Shown: piece by piece, positions 6,338 to 40,065 of the stretch | How the letters are laid out: each line of letters starts with the position of its first letter | Numbering within the stretch: the stretch's first letter is position 1 | Assembly (NCBI RefSeq): GCF_020080045.1 | Contig: NZ_CP083451.1 | Location: 1,488,001 to 1,552,000 of the forward strand | Origin: Comamonas odontotermitis | GTDB taxonomy: Bacteria > Pseudomonadota > Gammaproteobacteria > Burkholderiales > Burkholderiaceae_C | Direction: 5' to 3' | Length of the DNA: 64,000 bases | Notes under the pieces: model-generated | Told to the model about the DNA's origin: nothing | Databases searched by the model: none | What the model saw: the letters and a program-made list of their open reading frames with translations, nothing else | Position numbers and translations under genes: made by a program

Positions 6338-6641
6338 AAAGCTGAACTAACTTTTTGTCGTGGTATTCCCTCTCTCTATAAGGGTGCAATGATATATTAA
6401 ATTTATAATAAATTGAATTTGATAATTTTTATAAATATCATTACTTGGCCGGTGGGTAGTGGGCGCGCGCCACTTTGGGCGAAGCCCAGCAGTGGCCCGA
6501 GCCCTTGCACTGCCGTCGTTGCTTTGCGAGATGCCCGTGAAAGCATTCTTGCACGCAGGCATTGCAGAAGTGAGGCAGCGAAACGCTCGCAGCAGTGCCA
6601 GCTTTCCAGGTCGCTTAGTCCAGGTTCGCTATCATGACTTC

Positions 6642-31053: not shown

Positions 31054-33329
31054 TGAAGAATGCAATGACACGAGAAGAACAAGATCTGACTGTGAACACC
31101 CCTGGCCAGGAGCACCGCCAGGAGGCGCAGGCGCGGCCTGCTGCGAAGGTGGCCGCCGACAGCGCCACGGCCACCCTGCTGCACACGGTGCAGCGCTGGA
31201 CGGCGCACGGCTGGCTGCGCAGCCTGGATGAGGCGCTGGTGCTCTTTCTGCACGAGCTGGACCCTTCTGCATCGCCGCTGGTGCTGCTGGCCGCCGCGCT
31301 GGCCAGCCACCAGCTGGGGCGTGGCCACGTCTGCCTGGACTTGCGCGCCACCCTGGCCGGCAGCCGTTTTGTCCTGTCGCTGCCGCCCGATGCGGCTGAC
31401 CAGGGCAGCGGCGCGGTGGAGGCTACGCCCCTGCCATTGCCCAGCGAACTGCTGGCGAACGTGAGCCTGCCCCAATGGCAGGGCGCGCTGTTGGCCAGCG
31501 CACTGGTGGCGGGCGAAGGCAAGGCCACGCAGGGCGGCACGCCGCTGGTGCTGCAGGGCGACCGCCTGTACCTTCGCCGCTACTGGCAGCACGAGCAGGA
31601 CGTGGCGCGCGCCGTCGGCCAGCGCATCGATGCCAGCGGCATCCTGCGCGCTGCGCGCACGCCCGCGCAGGATGCCGCGCTGCGCGAGGCGCTCGATGTG
31701 CTGTTTGCCCCGCAGAGCGCAGATGCCGAGGGCCCTGACTGGCAGAAAATGGCCTGCGCGCTGGCCGCCACCAGCGCCTTTGCCATCATCACCGGCGGCC
31801 CGGGCACCGGCAAGACGACCACCGTCGTCAAGCTGCTGGCGCTGCTGCAGCACATGGCCTTGCAGCCCGATGCGGCCAGCGGCAAGCCTGCGCGTCCGTT
31901 GCGCATCTGCCTCGCCGCGCCCACGGGCAAAGCCGCCGCGCGGCTGACTGAATCCATCGTGCAGGCGCTGGGCCGCATTTCTGACGCTGAAATGCCCGAG
32001 ACGCCGCCGGTGGTGATGAACGGCGAGTCGCGCAGCCTGAAGCAGCTCATTCCCGCCGAAGCGCAGACCCTGCACCGCCTGCTGGGCAGCCGGCCCGAGA
32101 GCCGCCACTTTCGCCACAATGCGCAGAACCCGCTGGCGCTCGATGTGCTGGTGATCGACGAGGCGTCGATGGTCGATCTGGAAATGATGGCCGCCGTGCT
32201 GACCGCGCTGCCGCGCGATGCGCGCCTGGTGCTGCTGGGCGACAAAGACCAGCTCGCATCGGTGGAGGCGGGAGCCGTGCTGGGCGAGCTGTGTGCGCAA
32301 TCGGAGCGCGGCCTGTACTGGCACGAGACTGCGCACTGGCTGCAGCAGGTGACTGGTCAGCAAGTGCCCGCGCAACTGCAGGACATTGCGGGCAAACCGC
32401 TCGACCAGGAGGTGGTGATGCTGCGCGTAAGCCACCGCTTTCATGCCCAAAGCGGCATTGGTAGGCTGGCGCGCGAAGTCAACGCAGGCAACGGCAAGGC
32501 CATCAAGGGCCTGCTCAAGGAGCAGTACCCCGATGTGGCCGCCTACCCGGTGCCGGACATCACCCACTCATCGCTGGCGCAGCTGGTGATTGATGGCGGC
32601 GGCAAGCGCTTTCCTGAAAGCGTGCAAAAGCAGCAGGGCGGCCCGGTAGGCTATGGCCATTACCTGCAACTGCTGCGCGCCATGCCCCAAGAAGGAGGCC
32701 AGGCCGCGCTGGATGAGTGGGCCCACGCCCTGTTGGCCGCGCACAGCCGCTTTCAGGTGCTGTGCGCGCTGCGCAGTGGGCCCTGGGGAGTGGAGGGCAT
32801 GAACGAGCGCATTGCCCAGCTGCTGGCCCATCGCGACCTGATTGCGCACAGCAGCGGCTGGTATGCCGGCCGGCCGGTACTGGTCACGCGCAACGACTAC
32901 AGCCTGAAGCTGATGAATGGCGACATCGGCATCACGGTCGAAGTTCCGCTACACAATCAGGAGCTGATGGCGCATGCTGGTCGGGCGCAAGAGGCCCATA
33001 CGTCTGCAAACCCGGCGCGCGGCCTGCGCGTGGTATTTGCCACCGGTGAAGGCCTGCGCTGGGTGCTGCCCAGCCGCCTGCAGGCGGTGGAGACGGTGTA
33101 CGCAATGACCATCCACAAATCGCAGGGCTCGGAGTTCGACCACGCCGCCGTGGTGTTGCCGCCGCAGCTCTCGCCCATCATGACGCGCGAACTCGTCTAC
33201 ACCGGCATCACCCGCGCCAAGAACTGGCTGACGGTGGTGGCAGGCGGCACCAGCAGCTTTGCGGTGCTGGAGCAGGCGAGCCACCTGCAGGTCAAACGCG
33301 CCAGCGGTCTGCGGCAGGGCGAGCTGTGA
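31053..33329 (+). CDS. recD: exodeoxyribonuclease V subunit alpha RecD
   Basis: The product is 758 residues, longer than E. coli RecD (608). Walker A GGPGTGKTTTVVKLLALL is at about 247, then LAAPTGKAAARL, DVLVIDEASMVDLEMM, LLGDKDQLASVEAG and the SH3-like and motif VI segment YAMTIHKSQGSEFDHAAVVL...YTGITRAKNW. RecD is the 5'-3' helicase of RecBCD. The ATG is embedded in the recB stop, so the three genes are translationally coupled. Extra length lies in the N-terminal domain and in an insertion after QVTGQQVPAQLQDI. A second in-frame ATG at 31065 is possible. Confidence 0.95.
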   Translation: MKNAMTREEQDLTVNTPGQEHRQEAQARPAAKVAADSATATLLHTVQRWTAHGWLRSLDEALVLFLHELDPSASPLVLLAAALASHQLGRGHVCLDLRATLAGSRFVLSLPPDAADQGSGAVEATPLPLPSELLANVSLPQWQGALLASALVAGEGKATQGGTPLVLQGDRLYLRRYWQHEQDVARAVGQRIDASGILRAARTPAQDAALREALDVLFAPQSADAEGPDWQKMACALAATSAFAIITGGPGTGKTTTVVKLLALLQHMALQPDAASGKPARPLRICLAAPTGKAAARLTESIVQALGRISDAEMPETPPVVMNGESRSLKQLIPAEAQTLHRLLGSRPESRHFRHNAQNPLALDVLVIDEASMVDLEMMAAVLTALPRDARLVLLGDKDQLASVEAGAVLGELCAQSERGLYWHETAHWLQQVTGQQVPAQLQDIAGKPLDQEVVMLRVSHRFHAQSGIGRLAREVNAGNGKAIKGLLKEQYPDVAAYPVPDITHSSLAQLVIDGGGKRFPESVQKQQGGPVGYGHYLQLLRAMPQEGGQAALDEWAHALLAAHSRFQVLCALRSGPWGVEGMNERIAQLLAHRDLIAHSSGWYAGRPVLVTRNDYSLKLMNGDIGITVEVPLHNQELMAHAGRAQEAHTSANPARGLRVVFATGEGLRWVLPSRLQAVETVYAMTIHKSQGSEFDHAAVVLPPQLSPIMTRELVYTGITRAKNWLTVVAGGTSSFAVLEQASHLQVKRASGLRQGEL

Positions 33330-33515
33330 TGTGATGCACAAAGGCTGGCAGGTGGCGCGGGCAGAGCCCCGTGCGCCTTGCGCAGCGACTGAAAAAGCAA
33401 AAAGCGCCGACAGTGCAGACTGCGGCGCAATGGAAAGCGGAAGCCAGCCCATGCCGGATGGGCAGGGTGCGACAGGCTGAGCGACAAGGCACTCAGGGGC
33501 GAAATCGTTTCATCG

Positions 33516-33667
33516 AAAAAAATGCGTGGCTACCCGACAAGTCGTTGGCTGGCTAAAACGACCCCGAAGCTGAACAGGCCCCGAGTGTCGCCCCACGATG
33601 AAACAATCACTGTTGCGTTGGCACAAGCGCTTTTTGAGGGAGCGTTTGCGCCGTCTGCAGCGGCGAT
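33516..33667 (-). ncRNA. candidate Fur-regulated small RNA sharing its 3' module with hemP
   Basis: On the minus strand a good promoter (-35 TTGATA 33698-33703, 18-nt spacer, -10 TATAGT 33674-33679) overlaps a Fur-like box (33688-33702). Downstream there is no plausible protein (no ATG). The transcript of about 150 nt ends in a structured module and a run of seven T (33516-33522). The module pairs CGTGG with CCACG and CGAC with GTCG, and contains the hairpin GTCGTT-N10-AACGAC. The same module (GTTTCATCGTGGGGCGAC at its 5' side, GCCAGCC in a loop, GTAGCC near the end) forms the 3' UTR of hemP. An unpaired CUCCCUC in the 5' part could pair with ribosome sites. This is inference from sequence. 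Confidence 0.55.
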
Positions 33668-33673
33668 GGGTGA

Positions 33674-33703
33674 ACTATAACACTGAATGAGAATAATTAT
33701 CAA
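33674..33703 (-). promoter_or_regulatory. Fur-controlled promoter of the candidate small RNA
   Basis: TGAGAATAATTATCA (33688-33702) matches the 7-1-7 Fur consensus TGATAATNATTATCA at 13 of 14 defined positions. It covers the -35 and most of the spacer of a TTGATA-N18-TATAGT promoter. Iron-replete Fur should silence it. Confidence 0.7.
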
Positions 33704-33860
33704 TAAGAATGTGGATGAATTCTTTGCCAGACCCCAGTTTTGTGTAAGTGTTTGTTTTTGTGTTGGTTTCTGCCGCAAATTGCGCATAGGCAGAGGTGCG
33801 CGCGCTGCGAAATTTTGGTAACTTCTAGCTATCAATACAACAAAATTGCGGAGGATTGCA

Positions 33861-34190
33861 ATGATGAACAACAGCGAGAGTTTTCGATCGAGTGTGGTGG
33901 CGCTTTTGGCGCTGACGGCTTCTGCATGGTCGCACGCAGCGTGCTACACCGTCTACAACGCCAAGAGTGAAGTGGTGTACCGCAGCGTAGAGCCGCCGGT
34001 GGACATGTCCAAGCAACTGCACCAGACGCAAAGCCAGCTGCCTGCCGGCAGCCAGGTGGTGTTTTCGCCCAACAACAGCATTTGCGTGACCGAGGTGAAC
34101 GAGCTGCAAAAGGGCAAGGGGTTCAAGTCCACCAACGCCAATATGGTCACCGATCAGTTGAATCTGGGCAGCATGATCACCGCCCAGTGA
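33861..34190 (+). CDS. exported small protein, unrecognised
   Basis: The product is 109 residues from ATG 33861, with GGAGG ten bases upstream; an in-frame TTG at 33846 is discounted. A signal peptide (SSVVALLALTASAWSHA) is followed by ACYTVYNAKSEVVYRSVEPP and VDMSKQLHQT. Two cysteines in the mature part (ACYTVY, SICVTEV) may form a disulfide. It is probably periplasmic. I recognise no domain; a similar ACYTVY...PPVDMS pattern recurs in my memory of comamonad exported proteins, but this is not verifiable here. The start lies 158 bases from the divergent Fur-controlled promoter. A clear terminator follows. Confidence 0.7.
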   Translation: MMNNSESFRSSVVALLALTASAWSHAACYTVYNAKSEVVYRSVEPPVDMSKQLHQTQSQLPAGSQVVFSPNNSICVTEVNELQKGKGFKSTNANMVTDQLNLGSMITAQ

Positions 34191-35963: not shown

Positions 35964-36128
35964 AGGCACAAATGATGTGATGACGGCGACGGATTCCATC
36001 TGTTCATAGCCGGTTATGCTTGTGGAACGAGGAATGTGCGCAAAGTCCCCTCCTGCCCGGGAAAGTGGCTTTGGACACATCCTTTCCATCTGAACTGAGT
36101 TGAACCGATTCGATTGAGGAGAGACACC

Positions 36129-36536
36129 ATGAAAACCAAACCCGTGCTGGAACTGGCCGACGTCAAGGCCATCCTGAACGCTGCCGAGGCCGAAGCGGCC
36201 AAGAACAACTGGGTTGTCAGCATTGCCGTGGTGGACGATGGCGGCAACCTGCTGGGCATGATCCGCCGCGACGGCGCAGCCCCCGTGTCTGCCCACATCT
36301 GCCAGGCCAAGGCGCGCACCGCTGCGCTGGGCCGCCGCGACACCAAGGGCTACGAAGACATGATCAACGGTGGCCGTACCGCATTCCTGAGCGCTCCCGT
36401 GATCGACGGCATGCTCGAAGGCGGCCTGCCGGTCATGAAGGATGGCGAATGCCTGGGTGCTGTGGGCGTGAGCGGCGTCAAGTCCAACGAAGACGCGCAG
36501 ATCGCCAAGGCCGGTATTGCTGGCATCGGCCTGTAA
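36129..36536 (+). CDS. GlcG/HbpS-type heme-binding domain protein
   Basis: The product is 135 residues from ATG 36129, with AGGAG 9 bases upstream. A single GlcG/HbpS (DUF336) domain is seen: LADVKAILNAAEAEAAKNNW, VSIAVVDDGGNLLGMIRRDG, and the C-terminal GGLPVMKDGECLGAVGVSG. There is no signal peptide. Family members bind heme or corrinoids, or are accessory proteins of oxidative pathways. The catalytic role is unknown and the cofactor is not evident from sequence. It stands alone with its own terminator. Confidence 0.88.
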   Translation: MKTKPVLELADVKAILNAAEAEAAKNNWVVSIAVVDDGGNLLGMIRRDGAAPVSAHICQAKARTAALGRRDTKGYEDMINGGRTAFLSAPVIDGMLEGGLPVMKDGECLGAVGVSGVKSNEDAQIAKAGIAGIGL

Positions 36537-38381: not shown

Positions 38382-38409
38382 CACAACGGCCGCAATGGCG
38401 GCCGTTGTG
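38382..38409 (-). terminator. perfect 12-bp hairpin downstream of the hemP 3' UTR
   Basis: CACAACGGCCGC-AATG-GCGGCCGTTGTG; on the minus strand it is followed by CTTTTGG. It probably acts as a second, back-up terminator for hemP. Confidence 0.6.
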
Positions 38410-38426: not shown

Positions 38427-38518
38427 AAAAAAAGTGCCTGGCTACGTGGCAAGCCTCTGGCTGGCAAATACGACCTTTGGAGGGTGTGTTGGCCTCCTAG
38501 AGTCGCCCCACGATGAAA
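38427..38518 (-). ncRNA. structured hemP 3'-UTR module (same family as the RNA at 33516)
   Basis: It begins directly after the hemP stop with GTTTCATCGTGGGGCGAC and ends GCCAGGCA then seven T (38427-38433). It shares the 18-nt 5' block, the GCCAGCC loop element, the GTAGCC segment and the outer CGTGG/CCACG pairing with the orphan transcript at 33516-33667. The inner stem sequences differ. It serves at least as a terminator and may release a 3'-UTR-derived small RNA when hemP is expressed. Confidence 0.55.
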
Positions 38519-38519
38519 C

Positions 38520-38717
38520 CTATTTCGTCAGAATGAGCTTGCCCAGCTTGGTGGCCTGCAAGCGGTAGATGGCGCCATTGTGCAGAATGGAAACGGCTTT
38601 GGCGCCTTGCAGCAATTCGCTGCTCTCCAGGGTACCTGCAGGGCACACGGGCTGGGCCGTGCTGGCAGTGCTGAGCGGAGCAGTCGTTGGAAGGGCAAGA
38701 GGTGCGCTGGTTTGCAT
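38520..38717 (-). CDS. hemP: hemin uptake protein HemP
   Basis: The product is 65 residues from ATG 38717 (MQTSAPLALPTTAPLSTAST); a TTG at 38738 would add seven residues. The C-terminal half is the HemP/HmuP domain: LLQGAKAVSILHNGAIYRLQ ending TKLGKLILTK. HemP proteins are small, needed for heme or hemin uptake, and in rhizobia HmuP activates heme-uptake genes. Upstream at 38751 is a Fur-like box. Downstream is the structured element discussed above. No heme receptor is adjacent. Confidence 0.9.
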   Translation of the reverse strand: MQTSAPLALPTTAPLSTASTAQPVCPAGTLESSELLQGAKAVSILHNGAIYRLQATKLGKLILTK

Positions 38718-38750
38718 GGCAATCGCTTGTTGATTCAAAACTTGATCAAA

Positions 38751-38765
38751 TGATAACGATTCTTA
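38751..38765 (-). promoter_or_regulatory. Fur box of hemP
   Basis: TGATAACGATTCTTA matches TGATAATNATTATCA at 11 of 14 defined positions and lies about 35 bases before the hemP ATG. It contains the AATAAGAAT element (on the minus strand) shared with the other iron promoters here. Confidence 0.7.
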
Positions 38766-38859
38766 TTTCCAAAGTCCAGGGGATCTTTCGAATAACCATA
38801 CGGAACGTCAGAAAAAGCCGCCACAGCAATCCCTGGCTCACGGGCTGATCCAAAGCACA

Positions 38860-40065
38860 TCAGGTCGTATGCATCAAGGGATAAACGGCCAGCCCCAGTA
38901 GCGCAGCGGCAAGTACAACGACAGGCTCAGGCAGCTTTTTAAATCGCAAGAGCAATACCGCAGTCCCTACAGCCAGACATGCGGTGACCCAGTCACCAAT
39001 TGAGCGCTGCCCAATGACAATGACGGCCCCAATGATTGCTCCGATAGCTGCAGCGGTAACACCGTCCACAAATGCCACAAGAGCAGGCACTTTGCCGTAT
39101 TTTTTGAAGTAGGGAGCTGGAATCACGGTAAGCAAGAAGCATGGCAGAAATGTGGCAATCGCTGCAACCACGGCGCCCCAAAAGCCGGACACTAGAAAGC
39201 CAATAAATCCTGTAGTGATGACAACCGGCCCTGGCGTAATCATTGCCACTGCGACAGCGTCCACGAACTGGTGGTCGGTCAACCATGCGTACTCTTTGAC
39301 GACGCCCGAGTACAGGAACGGAACGATGGCTAAACCACTACCGAAAACGAATGTCCCGGCATAGGCAAAATAGCGCCCAATTTGAGCAATTTTTTCCAAG
39401 TCAACATTGCTCAATGCAAAGAACCCAATCACTGGTGCCGCCGATACATGCAGGGTGCGTTTGGAGATCCAGGCCGGAGGCGCACGCAGCAACCAAACGA
39501 GAACCCCGGAGCCGATGAAAAGCCACAGTTCCTCGGACTGGGTGACAAAGGTAACGCATGCACTTGTGGCACATATAAGCCATAGAAGCTTGTCTTTGCC
39601 GATGTTCTTGGTTGTGAGCTTGTACGCGCTGATGCTGATGATGCCTATCACGCATGCCCCAACGCCATAGAAAACGGCTTGCATCCATGTGAGACCTCCG
39701 TACGTTCTGTAGGTAACACCAAGCGCCACGACCATGACAAACGAAGGCAGCACAAAGGCAAGGCCGACGAGAGAAGCTCCAAGCAGGCGATATTGAACAA
39801 ATCCAAGATAGATTGCCAACTGAGCAGCTAGTGGCCCAGGCATCAACTGTGCAAGTGCGAGTCCTTCTTTGTAATCGGACTCAGTGAACCATTGGCGTCG
39901 CTCTACCAGGTCGCGATACATGTAGCCCACAAGCGCGACTGGGCCACCGAAACCCCAGGTGCCAAGGCCCAGCATGTAGAGGGTGAGCTGCCACAACGTA
40001 TAAGGTGTTGGGCTTGCGACCGTTTCAGGTGTGGATGGGGTGAGGGAGGGGGTGGGGGATGTCAA
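38860..40065 (-). CDS. chrA: chromate transporter ChrA (two-domain CHR family)
   Basis: The product is 401 residues, starting at TTG 40065, which has AGGAG seven bases upstream (no better ATG is in frame). There are two homologous CHR halves: GTWGFGGPVALVGYMYRDLV with LAQLMPGPLAAQLAIYLG, and VPFLYSGVVKEYAWLTDHQF with VAMITPGPVVITTGFIGF. This is the long CHR form that exports chromate with proton coupling. The leader holds a small hairpin (CGGGC-TATAT-GCCCG, 40078-40092). No chrB regulator is adjacent. Codons are less GC-rich than in the flanking genes, hinting at acquisition. Confidence 0.92.
   Translation of the reverse strand: MTSPTPSLTPSTPETVASPTPYTLWQLTLYMLGLGTWGFGGPVALVGYMYRDLVERRQWFTESDYKEGLALAQLMPGPLAAQLAIYLGFVQYRLLGASLVGLAFVLPSFVMVVALGVTYRTYGGLTWMQAVFYGVGACVIGIISISAYKLTTKNIGKDKLLWLICATSACVTFVTQSEELWLFIGSGVLVWLLRAPPAWISKRTLHVSAAPVIGFFALSNVDLEKIAQIGRYFAYAGTFVFGSGLAIVPFLYSGVVKEYAWLTDHQFVDAVAVAMITPGPVVITTGFIGFLVSGFWGAVVAAIATFLPCFLLTVIPAPYFKKYGKVPALVAFVDGVTAAAIGAIIGAVIVIGQRSIGDWVTACLAVGTAVLLLRFKKLPEPVVVLAAALLGLAVYPLMHTT

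Follow-up and report, generated by a model that had tools for sequence, protein, structure and literature searches.

An orphan transcription unit on the minus strand of the 64,000-nucleotide stretch of DNA analysed here (the window) is likely to encode, as a gene standing on its own, a trans-acting small RNA (sRNA) of the BrrF kind that Fur represses and that targets sodB, the gene having been duplicated from the 3′ end of the hemP mRNA. Under iron scarcity, the sRNA would probably lower iron-using enzymes such as superoxide dismutase. In the unit (33507–33707), a Fur box and a sigma-70 promoter are followed by a leader of mostly variable sequence and by a module of 89 nt; the unit sits between recD (frame end 33329; Pfam RecD_N) and a small plus-strand frame (33846–34190) that has no Pfam match. 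Its features are as follows, with HPRE denoting an HmuP-responsive element and 'cluster copies' denoting the eight orphan copies, the window's included, that are grouped by shared flanking frames.

33689–33707, minus strand: Fur box CTTATTGATAATTATTCTC, scoring 20.8 against the Fur matrix, the highest value in the 64-kb window; kept in the eight cluster copies.
33674–33703, minus strand: promoter TTGATA-N18-TATAGT, which shares positions with the Fur box; transcription is predicted to start at about 33667.
33658–33670, minus strand: conserved stretch CCCATCGCCGCTG around the predicted start in the eight cluster copies, the last of which reads CCCATCGCCGTGG.
33605–33667, minus strand: leader of about 63 nt, mostly variable in a comparison of the eight cluster copies.
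33516–33604, minus strand: orphan module, 89 nt, from the 5′ block to the end of the U7 tail.
33591–33604, minus strand: 5′ block and predicted seed GTTTCATCGTGGGG, which complements the sodB ribosome site.
33559–33590, minus strand: hairpin 1 (CGAC...GTCG), from a shuffle test of 86 distinct copies.
33547–33553, minus strand: GCCAGCC, first half of the HPRE-like element, from alignments (compare the HPREs in PMC9131926).
33535–33544, minus strand: small hairpin 2 (CGA...TCG), from a family shuffle test.
33524–33532, minus strand: TAGCCACGC, second half of the HPRE-like element, from alignments.
33516–33522, minus strand: U7 tail, the predicted mature 3′ end, its U-run conserved in alignments A2 and A3.
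33507–33515, minus strand: CGATGAAAC, just past the U-run, by sequence comparison the exact complement of GTTTCATCG at the 5′ end.

The Fur box was scored with a position weight matrix trained on 53 hemP-upstream boxes from other genomes. A preliminary description of this DNA had placed the box at 33688–33702; its existence is borne out by the top score of the window, although it is better placed at 33689–33707. The promoter that this description saw overlapping the box is confirmed, its hexamers TTGATA (33703–33698) and TATAGT (33679–33674) forming the sole sigma-70-like site in 33200–33900, where 0.3 would be expected. All eight cluster members retain the Fur box and promoter region, and in the other seven the −35 hexamer is present together with −10-like hexamers (TATAGT, TATGAT, TATTAT and TAAGAT). 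The stretch CCCATCGCCGCTG carries two changes in one of the eight, and the remaining leader is not kept. ATG is absent from 33667–33516, in agreement with the earlier statement that the predicted RNA has no start codon.

Across the family, the module keeps the order of 5′ block, hairpin 1, U-rich spacer, GC(C/U)AGCC, hairpin 2, AGCCA.GC and U-run. Of the block GUUUCAUCGUGGGG, the part CGUGGGGC is present in all 89 aligned copies; TCATCGTGGGGCGAC is exact in 85 of the 89 family members and CGTGGGGC in every one. Against mononucleotide shuffles, the folding of hairpin 1 ranks in the best 5% for 81 of 86 distinct copies, extending to the whole family the earlier observation that the inner stems differ while pairing is kept. 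For hairpin 2, 26 of 74 distinct segments lie within the same 5% (mean z −1.69), and that of the window's orphan copy does not (p 0.405). Further structural claims fell away. The single-sequence folding energies are ordinary (z −0.24, −0.47 and −0.38). Nor does the proposed CGTGG/CCACG closing stem hold generally. Its CCACG stands at non-equivalent positions in the two copies, 10 of 32 and 15 of 89 aligned copies have the matching end AGCCACGC, and in the consensus fold the CGTGG-containing block is paired with GCCAGCCA and not with the CCACG end. An unpaired CUCCCUC, put forward as a seed for ribosome sites, is found in only two of the eight cluster copies, and an anti-Shine–Dalgarno role for it finds no support.

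In the consensus fold, the partner of UGGGGC from the first block is GCC-AG-CCA throughout the 87 distinct rows, an arrangement that would hide both the seed and the HPRE-like part; this helix is nearly invariant, so its covariation support is slight and the pairing is weakly tested. Beyond the module, 49 of 84 orphans have a GATG no more than 14 nt from the U-run, versus 7 of 114 hemP copies (background 8.5%). The inverted repeat of GTTTCATCG and CGATGAAAC, frequent in orphans and rare in hemP copies, was considered as the end of a mobile element and rejected. A read-through transcript containing CGATGAAAC would lock the seed.

The preliminary description had made conservation beyond the two sites of the window a check on its proposal, and such conservation is found. 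The orphan sequence has BLASTN matches in 45 of 53 genomes of the window's genus, which takes in Comamonas and Delftia, with up to four matches per genome, and a covariance model built from 32 genus copies recovers the module in 65 of 250 family genomes and 40 of 141 genera. In an order sample of 300 genomes, searched with strict filters that miss divergent relatives, the model has matches in six, all of the same family (Comamonadaceae). A pattern scan of named genomes found at least 120 stretches, 80 of them listed; the genera among the matches listed include Acidovorax, Variovorax, Hydrogenophaga, Delftia, Comamonas, Polaromonas, Ramlibacter and others. Apart from one record titled 'Pantoea sp. 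18069', which is probably mislabelled, the named matches listed belong to what we take to be genera of Comamonadaceae.

The 198 distinct copies collected comprise 114 behind hemP and 84 elsewhere (orphans), the latter forming 16 locus clusters by shared flanking frames. A Fur box, defined with the matrix from hemP promoters at the 99% shuffle quantile, lies within 130 nt upstream in 78 of the 84 orphans, which are related sequences and not independent cases, versus none of 83 downstream control stretches. A module under its own Fur box is thus a repeated arrangement. Rfam has no match at the orphan site (33400–33750, up to E 1); relatives show six matches downstream of the module, all of them under the gathering threshold and none overlapping the module by more than 5 nt.

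The second copy of the module in the window follows hemP:

38752–38770, minus strand: hemP Fur box GGAAATAAGAATCGTTATC, with the second Fur-matrix score of the window, tied with 6421–6439.
38520–38738, minus strand: hemP coding sequence (PF10636, E 2.5e-15).
38427–38519, minus strand: hemP 3′ untranslated region (UTR) copy of the module, 93 nt, in the position of BrrF (BLASTN; covariance model R1, 76 bits).
38436–38465, minus strand: HPRE-like element of this copy (GCCAGCC, hairpin, TAGCCAGGC), from sequence.
38382–38409, minus strand: terminator-like 12-bp stem, 17 nt beyond the U-run of this copy, as described for BrrF.

The identical 18-nt 5′ block previously noted in the two copies is indeed shared, within an overall identity of 75% (BLASTN E 4.7e-9), and the genome holds just these two at E ≤ 0.001. 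In Comamonas and its relatives, the orphan gene seems to descend from a copy of the hemP tail. The original reading, a Fur-controlled non-coding RNA of iron-sparing type that is related by duplication to the hemP 3′ UTR, is well supported by the conservation, the Fur boxes of the orphans and the promoters of the cluster. A tandem double module stands behind hemP at four loci (L202, L214, L108 and L194, including Corticibacter, Lampropedia and Vandammella). On the other side of hemP, a chrB-b RNA (RF03086; 40104–40158, minus strand) adjoins the chromate transporter gene (38860–40065).

The best-supported target is likely to be sodB, read as Fe-type superoxide dismutase in the window's genome, with the sRNA acting by covering the ribosome site. 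This site reads AACCACGAGGAAACGACG-ATG and pairs with the 5′ block through 5 + 6 bp with one mismatch between them (−16.8 kcal/mol); a duplex as good occurs at 1% of 103 gene starts of the same genome, and CCACGA at one of the 103. The test with the 14-nt seed was post hoc, and earlier tests of duplex energies with the whole module or the 18-nt block gave no signal. Among family genomes outside the window's genus, CCACGA is found in the 40 nt before sodB in 30 of 51 RNA-bearing and 2 of 48 RNA-lacking genomes (Fisher 1.5e-9), the latter being those with no covariance-model or BLASTN match; 21 of the 51 RNA-bearing genomes have a sodB without it. This hexamer separates the two sets best of 209, and among pentamers CACGA does so. 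The comparison omits 11 of the 62 RNA-positive genomes outside the genus (only the other superoxide dismutase type, none, a fragment, or, in G208, a weak RNA match), and its 48 RNA-negative genomes were drawn from those listed, of 185. Within the genus, the sodB site is present in all 13 genomes with the RNA and in none of three without, two of the three being only 85% complete; the genus-level counts for sodB, sdhC and acn leave out genes whose start was not found. A poorly resolved SodB tree (115 rows, 95 columns) yields nine supported independent pairs, over which CCACGA agrees with the presence of the RNA in 3.6 and disagrees in 0.0 (median p 0.125), the values for CACGA being 5.3 and 0.2 (median p 0.06). 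The association of site and RNA is largely clade-wide, and the pair test is consistent with it, not decisive.

A weaker candidate is sdhC, in which CCACGA lies 17–20 nt before the start in 15 of 17 RNA-bearing Comamonas and in neither of two RNA-lacking ones with a start found; its pairing energy is ordinary, a fraction of 0.21 of gene starts being equally good. Two further candidates were rejected: acnA, which pairs in the window's genome and not in relatives whose start was found, and acnD, for which the starts found show CCACGA in no genome but the window's own. A scan of this genome for CCCCACGATGAA, the complement of the 5′ block, allowing one mismatch, gave 37 matches versus four for the reversed control, and the 30 loci viewed, two of them the sRNA copies, offered no convincing start-codon target. 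The same genome carries two direct copies of GCAATTTTTCATCGCCGGGCCGCCCCAAGATGAAAAGCGCCCCT, 86 nt apart, before a long open frame (C1:991376–991473; L303/L304).

From these features we infer how the orphan RNA would be transcribed, processed, repressed and bound by HemP. When iron is scarce, Fur would leave the box at 33689–33707, and RNA polymerase would start near 33667 and make a transcript that stops at the U7 tail (33516); its 63-nt leader may be trimmed to a GUUUC start, BrrF likewise being trimmed. The block GUUUCAUCGUGGGG would then pair with target mRNAs and, with its 5 + 6 bp and one mismatch, cover the Shine–Dalgarno region CCACGAGGAAAC of sodB, so that translation should be blocked. 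The HPRE-like 3′ half could be bound by HemP; since the consensus fold pairs the seed UGGGGC with the HPRE segment GCC-AG-CCA, such binding could free the seed.

The sRNA is possibly HemP-bound, its 3′ half resembling the HmuP/HemP-responsive element that often follows hemP in Burkholderiales. The HPRE was reportedly described in Amarelle et al. 2019. It is a direct repeat occurring in alpha- and betaproteobacteria (PMC9241770), and the ChuP study gives CCCGCAAGCCAGCCGACAGCCAGCCAGCG and GCCAGCCAGACGACGCCGCCG as elements of Chromobacterium; in its proposal, the heme-binding protein ChuP, one of the HemP/HmuP kind, works at the 5′ UTR of the mRNA (PMC9131926). In the literature searched, that study was the sole one to bring the HPRE together with HmuP, heme and a UTR, and the available text of the BrrF paper (PMC7377471) makes no mention of the HPRE or HmuP. 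The module contains such a direct repeat of GCCAGCC-type units, the second unit being altered in the Comamonadaceae copies (AGCCAGGC, AGCCACGC and others). Such spacing of the units also arises by chance (three seen in the window, 1.67 expected), so the case for an HPRE rests on conservation. In the order sample (L115–L144), 23 of 30 loci have at least two GCCAGC in the 200 nt behind hemP, as do 2.2% of shuffles and 5 of 330 other stretches; in a second set, family f32, taken to be Burkholderiaceae, the figures are 16 of 30 loci, 1.8% of shuffles and 10 of 345 other stretches. Several hemP-downstream loci read GCCAGCCA, hairpin, UAGCCAGCCA, close to the sRNA 3′ half. GCCAGC pairs around a hairpin occur also where no seed block was found.

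The HPRE-like pairs behind hemP, with their closeness to the sRNA 3′ half, lead to the proposal that BrrF-type RNAs join a seed and a HemP-responsive element. It is a tentative suggestion that BrrF-type sRNAs are HemP-partnered in this way, the mRNA for HemP, a small heme-binding regulator, ending in such an RNA, with the HPRE closing the seed until HemP binds and with orphans repeatedly freed from hemP. It is improbable that the RNA works mainly through the HPRE, as a Fur-induced decoy or cargo for HemP that tunes heme and siderophore receptors, with mRNA pairing secondary. The GCCAGC pair around a hairpin is the part most widely kept behind hemP (23 of 30), also without the seed block, and the HPRE is proposed to act on mRNA 5′ UTRs with ChuP/HmuP (PMC9131926); however, within Comamonadaceae the seed block equals the HPRE in conservation and goes along with the sodB site, the second HPRE half is altered, and HemP/HmuP is described as a DNA-level activator in some studies, accounts of its mode of action differing between bacteria.

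Among known systems, the free-standing, sodB-directed sRNA favoured here comes closest to BrrF of Burkholderia cenocepacia (also named ncS63 and BTH_s39; PMC7377471, PMC5688073). Described as iron-induced, BrrF is a 126-nt sRNA that arises by processing of the hemP 3′ UTR, with hemP upstream in all genera surveyed; its 5′ end is CGA|GUAUU, and it ends at a U-run without a preceding stem, the terminator lying further on (PMC7377471). It is described as lowering sodB, acnA, fumA, katB and sdh, and its 5′ end is dispensable for sdhC control in Burkholderia (PMC7377471). Among the f32 loci, GTATTGTGGGG is found in the hemP 3′ UTR of all 30. The distance from it to the U-run end is 124–130 nt in 28, and it is preceded by CGA in six, by CGG in 13 and by other triplets in 11. 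On the strength of GTATTGTGGGG and the matching distances, the f32 element was taken as BrrF.

Direct similarity between BrrF and the Comamonadaceae module is insignificant (best E 0.71 and 6.4; covariance model, best E 0.17). The two could accordingly be independent sRNA families that resemble each other by convergence on the hemP 3′ UTR position, a reading that is doubtful. In its favour, the order GTGGGG, hairpin, GCCAGC, hairpin, AGCCA.GC, U-run, searched with a regular expression written post hoc after both groups had been seen, is missing from all 30 hemP loci of the order sample; it occurs in 20 of 30 f32 hemP UTRs and in none of 6,000 shuffles. Against convergence, 13 of the 14 HMM hits below threshold lie within BrrF, their order matching, and the two groups share the same position, a similar neighbour and the same order of parts. 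The neighbour, an HbpS-like motif at most 1.8 kb downstream, accompanies 66 of 97 hemP copies, 13 of 30 f32 loci and none of 80 orphans; the window's HbpS-like gene lies at 36114–36536. The orphan itself is outside a hemP 3′ UTR, where the sister copy (38427–38519) and 114 of the 198 distinct copies lie, and the predicted Fur boxes of orphan and hemP suggest the Fur control known for BrrF. Because position, order of parts and neighbours agree, the Comamonadaceae module is probably a counterpart or branch of BrrF. The suggestion of a new sRNA family thus stands in that Rfam has no match, and gives way in that the module is probably the Comamonadaceae branch of the described BrrF (PMC7377471).

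It is very unlikely that the duplicated hemP tail was kept as a terminator or 3′-end-protecting module with no regulatory role of its own. The U-run, the unexceptional folding energy and the dispersal of orphans over 16 locus clusters would suit such a role, but it is at odds with the Fur box in 78 of 84 orphans, and termination leaves the conserved 5′ block and HPRE halves unexplained; moreover, no stem immediately precedes the U-run in the aligned copies, and the orphan module ends in no canonical terminator. A small protein or peptide gene can be practically dismissed: an open frame (33530–33871, TTG start) runs through the module, but aligned copies differ by single-base indels across it, for which the module is taken as non-coding, no frame is conserved in the alignments, and the conservation is located in RNA features.

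The favoured reading, if true, would provide an iron-sparing sRNA for Comamonadaceae (Comamonas, Delftia, Acidovorax, Variovorax and others), for which none was found in the literature searched, and a natural series in which a 3′ UTR-derived sRNA is also present as independent Fur-controlled genes; it makes testable an action of HemP on BrrF-type sRNAs through an HPRE. If the HemP-partnered reading is true, the iron-sparing arm of Fur and sRNA and the heme-uptake arm of HemP would be joined in one RNA.

Compared with known systems, the orphan resembles RyhB of E. coli and PrrF of Pseudomonas aeruginosa in having its own Fur box directly upstream (PMC7377471), in its presumed iron-sparing logic and in counting sodB among its predicted targets; it differs from them in that no Rfam model, those of RyhB and PrrF included, recognizes the orphan site (33400–33750). 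With the HPREs of Ensifer and Chromobacterium (PMC9131926) it shares repeated GCCAGCC/AGCCAGCC units, whereas the described elements lie upstream of receptor genes and the one here forms the 3′ half of a free-standing sRNA. The likeness to BrrF as described covers the hemP 3′ UTR position (hemP copy), Fur control, here predicted, GUGGGG near the 5′ end, the succession of hairpin, GCCAGC, hairpin, AGCCA.GC and a U-run that no stem precedes, a more distal terminator (hemP copy), an HbpS-like neighbour at part of the loci, and sodB as a target through the 5′ end, which in the present RNA is a prediction from sequence. BrrF is 126 nt long, in contrast to about 90 nt for the module, sequence similarity is weak, and BrrF, in the published survey, is always found behind hemP and without its own Fur box, whereas the free-standing copies have a Fur promoter of their own. 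What looks new is this free-standing form with its own Fur promoter and its spread through Comamonadaceae, together with a seed at the 5′ end that fits the ribosome site of sodB and a 3′ half resembling an HPRE.
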